Positions 37,340-38,615 of a stretch of 47,043 nucleotides of DNA are shown piece after piece. The DNA lies in NCBI GenBank assembly GCA_012799825.1, contig JAAZKK010000121.1, positions 1 through 47,043 on the forward strand, given 5' to 3'. The notes beneath the pieces are model-generated. The model was given only the letters and a program-made list of their open reading frames with translations, made no database searches and was not told the origin of the DNA. The translations under genes were made by a program, and so were the position numbers. The stretch comes from Clostridiaceae bacterium. GTDB taxonomy: Bacteria; Bacillota; Clostridia; Saccharofermentanales; DTU023. The stretch's first letter is position 1. Every line of letters starts with the position of its first letter.

Positions 37340-37738
37340 GACGATTTTTTGCCAACGATCAGAGATAGCATCGAAACCAAGATTTTTGTACGATCGTCCT
37401 CGATGAGCGCCGATAGATTTTCGAAGTCGGTGTCTCTGTCCCTTAATTCATGCGGAATGCGCCGGAGCATGTCGTCCATTCGGTTGCGACCAATGATGTC
37501 TTCAAGTTCGAAAAAAATCATCGATACGAAAGAGTGCAATATCGCCTCAAAAAAGCCGACAGTAATCGTCGGGTTGTAACCTCTGTAAATTCCGTCGATC
37601 TTATCAAGATTCTTTATGAAAGTTCCTTGACAGTCCCCAAGGTTGTAATTTTACTTCGCCATGGCAGTAAACATGATATGATAGGTTTCAACGCGGATAT
37701 CTCTGATATATTTGGCGCGATCGAAATGCCCGATTGAT
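37340..37738 (-). pseudogene. Decayed C-terminal remnant of an unidentified gene
   Basis: The minus-strand frame reads as continuous protein-like sequence (for example FDRAKYIRDIRVETYHIMF, then VGFFEAILHSFVSMIFF and DDMLRRIPHEL), with a single in-frame TAA at about 37650 after MAK. A stop also lies just upstream near 37750, and no start codon or ribosome site precedes it. The frame runs on into the 3' end of the peptidase gene. The pattern suggests a truncated, mutated gene left between the peptidase and folD. I do not recognise the family. A sequencing error at the TAA cannot be excluded. Confidence 0.4.
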
Positions 37739-37769: not shown

Positions 37770-38615
37770 GTGGCGCAGATTTTATTAGGGAAAGCTGTAG
37801 CGGATGCTCGCTCAGAGGATCTTATTGGGCGTGTGGAAGTGCTGAAGGAAAAAGGGATCGATCCAAAACTTGTGATTGTGCGTGTTGGCGAGAAACCGGA
37901 GGATCTTTCATATGAGCGCGGCGCGTTGAATCGTGCCCGGCGCATCGGTGTGGAGACTGACGTAAGGGTATTTCAAGAGAACGTCTCGACGGGCGAAGTG
38001 CTTGATGCGATAGCGGCAATCAACGAGGATCCGAAGATCCACGGATGTCTAGTTTTCCGCCCCCTTCCTAAAACCGTTGATGAGCGCGTCATCTGTGAAT
38101 CACTTGCGCCGGAGAAGGACGTTGACGGTATAGGCTCCGCGTCGATGGCGCATGTTTTCATGAATCAAGGAAGCGGATTTGCTCCTTGTACGGCCGAAGC
38201 CGTGCTTGCTATGCTAAAGCATTACAAGATCCCGATGAGCGGGTCGCGTGTTACCGTCATCGGCAGAAGTCTTGTCATCGGGAAGCCCGTGTCGATGATG
38301 CTTTTAAATGAAAACGCAACGGTGACGATATGCCACACGAGGACACGTGATCTTGCCGCCGCGGCGCGCGAAGCCGATATTATCGTCGCTTGTGCGGGGA
38401 AAGCCGGTATGGTGGGTAAGGATTTTGTTCGCGAAGACCAGACGGTCATCGATGTCGGCATCAACGTCAATGACGAGGGGAAATTAGTAGGCGATGTCGA
38501 TTTTGATTCTGTGGAACCGATCGTTGCCAACATCACTCCAACACCACGCGGAGTCGGTTCGGTCACGACGACGATGTTGATGCAGCACGTTGTAGAAGCA
38601 GCGGAGATGATTTGA
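37770..38615 (+). CDS. folD: FolD-like methylene-THF dehydrogenase lacking cyclohydrolase residues
   Basis: Family of bifunctional NAD(P)-dependent methylene-tetrahydrofolate dehydrogenase/methenyl-THF cyclohydrolase. The 281-residue chain keeps PEKDVDG (about 114-120), the GRSLVIGKPVSMML nucleotide-binding block, and TPTPRGVGSVTTTML. But the motif Y-x-x-x-K, whose Lys drives the cyclohydrolase step, reads Y48-E-R-G-A52, and the G-x-L-V-Q motif reads GCLVF with Phe96 for the Gln. From mutants of other FolDs such a protein would retain at most dehydrogenase activity. The GTG at 37770 has AAGGAAGGGG 8 nt upstream; the upstream ATG at 37734 lacks one. Confidence 0.85.
   Translation: MAQILLGKAVADARSEDLIGRVEVLKEKGIDPKLVIVRVGEKPEDLSYERGALNRARRIGVETDVRVFQENVSTGEVLDAIAAINEDPKIHGCLVFRPLPKTVDERVICESLAPEKDVDGIGSASMAHVFMNQGSGFAPCTAEAVLAMLKHYKIPMSGSRVTVIGRSLVIGKPVSMMLLNENATVTICHTRTRDLAAAAREADIIVACAGKAGMVGKDFVREDQTVIDVGINVNDEGKLVGDVDFDSVEPIVANITPTPRGVGSVTTTMLMQHVVEAAEMI

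Follow-up and report, generated by a model that had tools for sequence, protein, structure and literature searches.

A clostridial FolD homologue without the cyclohydrolase lysine and glutamine, and a hut-linked FTCD_C protein as its candidate partner

The FolD homologue encoded in the window (the whole 47,043-nucleotide stretch of DNA analysed here, contig C110 of assembly G000, which is 2.31 Mb and 91.8 % complete) is likely to be a methylene-THF dehydrogenase only. In the arrangement that we propose, the cyclohydrolase half of the active site would have been lost while the methylene-THF dehydrogenase remains, the exchange between methenyl-THF and 10-formyl-THF would be left to a single FTCD_C protein encoded beside hutH, and Fhs would make 10-formyl-THF from formate. 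The evidence comes from the residues of the window FolD, its predicted fold, its position in trees, the gene content of the assembly and the co-occurrence of residue loss with FTCD_C in other genomes.

The gene was found to encode an uninterrupted protein of 281 aa, read by translation from GTG to TGA (window:37770-38615, forward strand), with the following features.

37770..38615, + strand: folD homologue, predicted methylene-THF dehydrogenase without cyclohydrolase, GTG start, 281 aa
37754..37769, + strand: ribosome-binding stretch AAGGAAGGGGAAAGAC 5' of the GTG, read from the sequence
37911..37913, + strand: Tyr48, conserved active-site Tyr
37923..37925, + strand: Ala52 where the catalytic Lys is expected, from alignment with 3p2o
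38055..38057, + strand: Phe96 where the active-site Gln is expected, from alignment with 3p2o
38124..38126, + strand: Asp119 of KDVDG, conserved
38262..38288, + strand: GRSLVIGKP nucleotide-binding motif, residues 165-173

Directly 5' of the GTG the sequence reads AGGGGAAAGACA. A TTG start at 37734 was rejected because of the good ribosome-binding stretch at GTG 37770, where two close relatives have ATG. Both Pfam domains scored above their cut-offs, THF_DHG_CYH (PF00763) at 104.3 bits and THF_DHG_CYH_C (PF02882) at 189.7 bits. On alignment with 3p2o, the solved Campylobacter FolD, Y-E-R-G-A lies opposite Y-V-K-S-K and GCLVF opposite GILVQ, so the catalytic Lys corresponds to Ala52 and the Gln to Phe96. 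Tyr48, Lys116, Asp117, Asp119, GRSLVIGKP and the C-terminal P-x-G-x-G are kept. Translation and alignment thus confirmed two claims of an earlier sequence-only reading, namely that Lys and Gln are replaced (Y48-E-R-G-A52 and G-C-L-V-F96) and that the nucleotide-binding motifs and the Asp of KDVDG are retained.

The protein models as a complete FolD, the predicted structure having a pLDDT of 94.9 and TM-scores of 0.96/0.95 to 3p2o_B and 0.88 to E. coli FolD (5o28). Comparison with the two nearest relatives gave dN of 0.05-0.08, dS of 0.44-1.15 and dN/dS of about 0.06-0.12, and this low dN relative to dS indicates that the gene is under purifying selection and not decaying. A pseudogene was rejected on these values and on the open frame. 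In a contig scan covering three loci, relatives with 91 % and 86 % FolD identity were metagenome-assembled genomes filed as Clostridiaceae. Immediately downstream of the gene is an rpmH-rnpA-yidD-yidC-jag-mnmE-like series (window:38730-43577), to which names were assigned by eye on the basis of translations from the window and L004.

The expected effect of such replacements can be gauged from E. coli FolD, in which, according to the available part of a mutant study, K54N leaves cyclohydrolase undetectable and dehydrogenase at about 19 %, and Q98H leaves about 1 % and 8 % respectively (PMC5688156). These published Lys54 and Gln98 mutants match what the sequence-only reading had stated for Lys mutants of the human enzyme, that cyclohydrolase is lost and dehydrogenase kept. 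Since they also lose most of their dehydrogenase activity, the window enzyme would need compensating changes. It has Lys42 and Arg97, near the lost residues in sequence, and one of them could stand in for the lost Lys.

The sequence-only reading had also held that the cell would need a separate cyclohydrolase, such as FchA, or a second FolD. The genome search returned one FTCD_C (PF04961) gene (C121:34537-35082, E 9.4e-61, 205 bits) and, by a PF02882 search, no second FolD; a match on C70 (21.6 bits) was rejected as a second FolD because it is weak and below the cut-off. The FTCD_C neighbourhood on C121 runs recN, hutH, fchA, rny. A single Fhs gene is located on C6, so that folD, FTCD_C and Fhs occupy three contigs and folD is not clustered with fchA. 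Urocanase and FTCD_N are both on C100, making a histidine-to-formimino-THF route likely. Beside the hut genes on C100 (L237:2070-5196) lie two genes that overlap by 11 bases, one for a 645-aa protein matching no Pfam family and one for a protein resembling octopine dehydrogenase.

To relate FolD residues to gene content, residues were read at three positions in 203 genomes, comprising 91/148 from a sample of relatives (with a FolD match in 139/148) and 112/298 from a further sample of the phylum. Of the latter, 79 came from a set of 80 that we chose by eye because their FolD scores were low, and the other 33 consisted of 14 chosen for FTCD_C adjoining folD, 6 for FTCD_C elsewhere and 13 with high scores (3 with FTCD_C). 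Given this selection, the survey percentages are not phylum-wide frequencies, and adjacency arises partly by choice. G432 and G254 (truncated FolD frame) were left out, and absence of FTCD_C means that none was among the matches listed.

Among the matches listed, FTCD_C was present in 117/120 genomes without a Lys+Gln FolD versus 17/82 with one (Fisher p 7e-33, a value that ignores kinship and treats as a random draw genomes that were not one). Both residues were lost in 93/203 genomes, 91 with FTCD_C among the matches listed, in 55/93 within the same fetched stretch as folD. Lys was lost and a Gln-bearing copy present in 7 genomes, 6 with FTCD_C. A further class keeps Lys and has Glu for Gln (e.g. 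GIMVELPLP; L212-L225, L124, L143, L148, L156 and L159); all 19 of its genomes have FTCD_C, which in 15/19 lies within the fetched stretch that holds folD, 14 of the 15 having been selected for adjacency. The remaining genomes were one other with FTCD_C and one without, G008, whose partial FolD was placed outside the 120 versus 82 comparison. The Lys+Gln copy of G427 was counted as such although it has Ser for Tyr. The converse of the association fails, since FTCD_C is also found alongside canonical FolDs. For a kinship-free test of Lys loss against FTCD_C, the 2-3 independent pairs were too few.

Three genomes had neither FTCD_C nor an intact FolD among the matches listed: G012, of the window's own genus and 84 % complete; G439 (94 %); and G296 (99 %), which has three FolD copies, none Lys+Gln. 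G320 and G344 were removed from these exceptions after a further FolD copy was read. Several other arrangements were observed. A natural FolD-FTCD_C fusion forms a single 542-aa frame, FolD first, in G048 (L064:1891-3516) and G059 (L066:2622-4247); it adjoins fhs, its FolD part has Ile for Lys and Leu for Gln, and Pfam confirmed both domains in G048. Paralogue pairs in L122 (G268), L128 (G249), L134 (G241) and L155 (G366) place a canonical Lys+Gln copy next to one in which Gln replaces Lys, the second site is Gln or His, and KDVDG reads KDVEG. In G418 (C1:595133-595476), a FolD N-domain interrupted by an in-frame stop adjoins FTCD_C, and another FolD-FTCD_C pair is kept.

The window FolD belongs to a large Bacillota group in which Lys and Gln are missing and FchA/FTCD_C is almost always encoded in the same genome. 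A first FolD tree of 224 rows (in most cases a single row for each residue class of a genome) was built with six active-site columns blanked, and intact versus non-intact FolD required 3 changes on it, compared with a shuffled mean of 66. A second tree of 86 hand-picked rows, with these columns likewise blanked, also gave 3 changes, of which starred branches force at least 2. On the latter, the window FolD groups with its genus (support 92). More broadly, it and 42 other rows, every one of them without Lys and Gln, make up one side of a branch (support 87, or 95 and starred for 42/43). Another 8 rows without both residues lie on the other side of the branch, which indicates that the loss occurred more than once. 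The FolDs of G016, G022 and G028 (L052, L055 and L057) form a starred group nested in the canonical FolDs of the window's family and beyond; they represent a separate loss of Lys, with Gln also lost in two, and their genomes have one hut-linked FTCD_C each.

Sharing of the double loss by 93/203 genomes, together with clustering of such rows when the affected columns are blanked, places it beyond chance. Its fixation in so large a group, whose genomes also encode FTCD_C, points towards an enzyme with dehydrogenase activity only, and the monofunctional reading proposed from the sequence is supported by the residues, the FolD tree, the co-occurrence with FTCD_C and the published E. coli mutants. 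Every NCBIfam model matching the window FolD (25 among the matches listed, all below cut-offs) is named bifunctional, so annotation by family name would credit many Bacillota with a cyclohydrolase activity probably absent from their FolD. The two FolD residues and a check for FTCD_C tell mono- from bifunctional cases apart. As E. coli K54N is described as insensitive to carolacton in the available part of its report (PMC5688156), the same may hold for FolDs that lack this Lys.

The partner in the window's genome differs from that of most related FolDs. In the FTCD_C tree, one starred clade contains 54 folD-linked rows, most of which partner YERGA-type FolDs, with L192 of G316 an exception by the FolD tree. 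A second starred clade holds 20 hut-linked rows and is closer to the partners of Lys/Glu FolDs. The FTCD_C of the window organism falls in the hut-linked clade and not in that of most YERGA-type partners. FTCD_C was found in 12/14 genomes of the genus, in 11 as a single copy, and the recN-hutH-fchA-rny neighbourhood was seen in 12/12 of these as far as contigs reach. None of the 14 had FTCD_C beside folD, two of the folD contigs being short. G003 has a second, very divergent FTCD_C, whose neighbours are FTCD_N, urocanase and a paralogue of hutH (C26; L101:3067-3813).

This hut linkage bears on an alternative that is compatible with the dehydrogenase-only part of our explanation, namely that the FolD is a dehydrogenase only and that the organism has no enzymatic cyclohydrolase at all. 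FTCD_C would then act solely as formimino-THF cyclodeaminase, Fhs would supply 10-formyl-THF and the remaining exchange would be spontaneous. The position of the FTCD_C gene after hutH, the urocanase and FTCD_N on another contig and the presence of Fhs all fit this alternative, as do hut-linked FTCD_C genes of the same clade in two genomes that retain a Lys+Gln FolD, G018 and G019, and a hut-linked FTCD_C placed by coordinates in G024. Spontaneous conversion is also the reason that the authors give, in the available part of their paper, for survival of the E. coli mutants (PMC5688156). Against it, Lys loss accompanies FTCD_C elsewhere in the survey, and the window FTCD_C favours the solved methenyl-THF cyclohydrolase 7vg4 over FTCD (118.1 versus 97.5 bits). 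The hut-linked protein of G018, from a genome with canonical FolD, scored nearly equally (92.6 versus 90.4), and a folD-linked FchA from G017 scored 152.8 versus 92.6. For these three proteins the scores are suggestive of a cyclohydrolase role for the window FTCD_C. It has the core residues common to FchA and cyclodeaminases, and agrees with folD-linked FchAs at position 54 but not at positions 50, 53 and 150. Taken together, an absence of enzymatic cyclohydrolase is a serious possibility that we place clearly below even.

Under the preferred reading, in which FTCD_C covers the exchange, the single hut-linked protein may act in histidine breakdown as well as in the one-carbon metabolism of the window organism. 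Its history is more tentative: a hut-linked FTCD_C taking over the methenyl-THF cyclohydrolase step in this Bacillota family, letting the window lineage drop FchA and the sister genus (G016, G022 and G028) lose the FolD Lys again, is a scenario to which we give somewhat less than an even chance.

It was also considered whether the FolD is still bifunctional, with the function of Lys and Gln assumed by Lys/Arg42, Arg97, Arg38 and Glu49. In a residue comparison of 85 double-loss rows with canonical rows, where positions 52 and 96 and, in part, 49 define the classes and a few genomes appear twice, basic residues were gained in the double-loss group at positions 21, 38, 42, 97 and 160. Arg38 was present in 79/85 double-loss rows, Arg97 in 60/85 and Arg or Lys42 in 66/85, with few in canonical rows; Glu49 was present in 79/85, partly from how the group was chosen. 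However, position 52 is Ala, Ile, Leu or Val depending on the genome, as expected for a position without a catalytic role, and the FTCD_C found in most such genomes, often near folD and in two cases fused to it, would be superfluous for a bifunctional enzyme. Retained bifunctionality is therefore improbable. The natural variants (Ala, Ile, Leu or Val with Phe, Leu or Met; Lys with Glu; Gln with His) constitute a set for studying how the two activities separate.

That a dedicated fchA lies in sequence absent from the assembly is more improbable still: the assembly is incomplete and both kinds of FTCD_C occur in G017 and G023 of the same family, but the hutH-linked and mostly single-copy pattern across the genus argues otherwise, and a folD-linked FchA used as query found only the hut-linked gene in the window's genome, not the usual folD-linked type.

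The window FolD can be placed among known systems. E. coli FolD (5o28) shares its fold and dehydrogenase motifs, and Lys54 and Gln98 in the numbering of PMC5688156 are Ala52 and Phe96 here. The yeast NAD-dependent dehydrogenase 1edz is described, in titles cited by PMC11064299, as monofunctional with dehydrogenase activity only; kinship with it was rejected, since the match (E 2.7e-9) is far weaker than to bacterial FolDs. FchA-MtdA bifunctional enzymes are described for Clostridium formicaceticum and others in the accessible text of PMC12844395, and resemble the FolD-FTCD_C frame of G048 and G059 in joining both activities in one chain, whereas the window FolD is unfused.

Separate genes are also documented. 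In the available portions of the sources, the locus tags of fhs, fchA and folD in Clostridium autoethanogenum are neighbouring and the genes have been expressed in E. coli (PMC9618320), and Tepidanaerobacter acetatoxydans has the three as separate genes (PMC3584212); their placement at neighbouring tags or one locus differs from the three contigs of the window genome. The order fhs-fchA-folD was also found, by coordinates, in G017, G023, G045 and G053, and in Anaerotardibacter muris (L006:3689-6852), whose FolD (YERTA/GCLMF) is 53 % identical to that of the window and possibly reflects lateral transfer between distant phyla.

Among the records listed by searches of a literature collection that lacks most subscription papers, none described this FolD group or a hut-linked FTCD_C replacing FchA. 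What is new for the window organism is a YERGA-group FolD for which a hut-linked FTCD_C, in place of the usual FchA partner, is the sole candidate found. A Clostridium perfringens study by Aluri and colleagues (2016, Microbiology 162:145) is cited in PMC7219735. It is reported to describe a monofunctional dehydrogenase FolD, with FchA supplying the cyclohydrolase and Fhs present. By this description, with likeness judged on gene content and not on residue class, the window genome is similar in having a separate FTCD_C/FchA protein and Fhs, and differs in the hut linkage of its FTCD_C. The combination of a monofunctional FolD and a separate FchA is thus already established in clostridia, and the window FolD looks like a new example of it.
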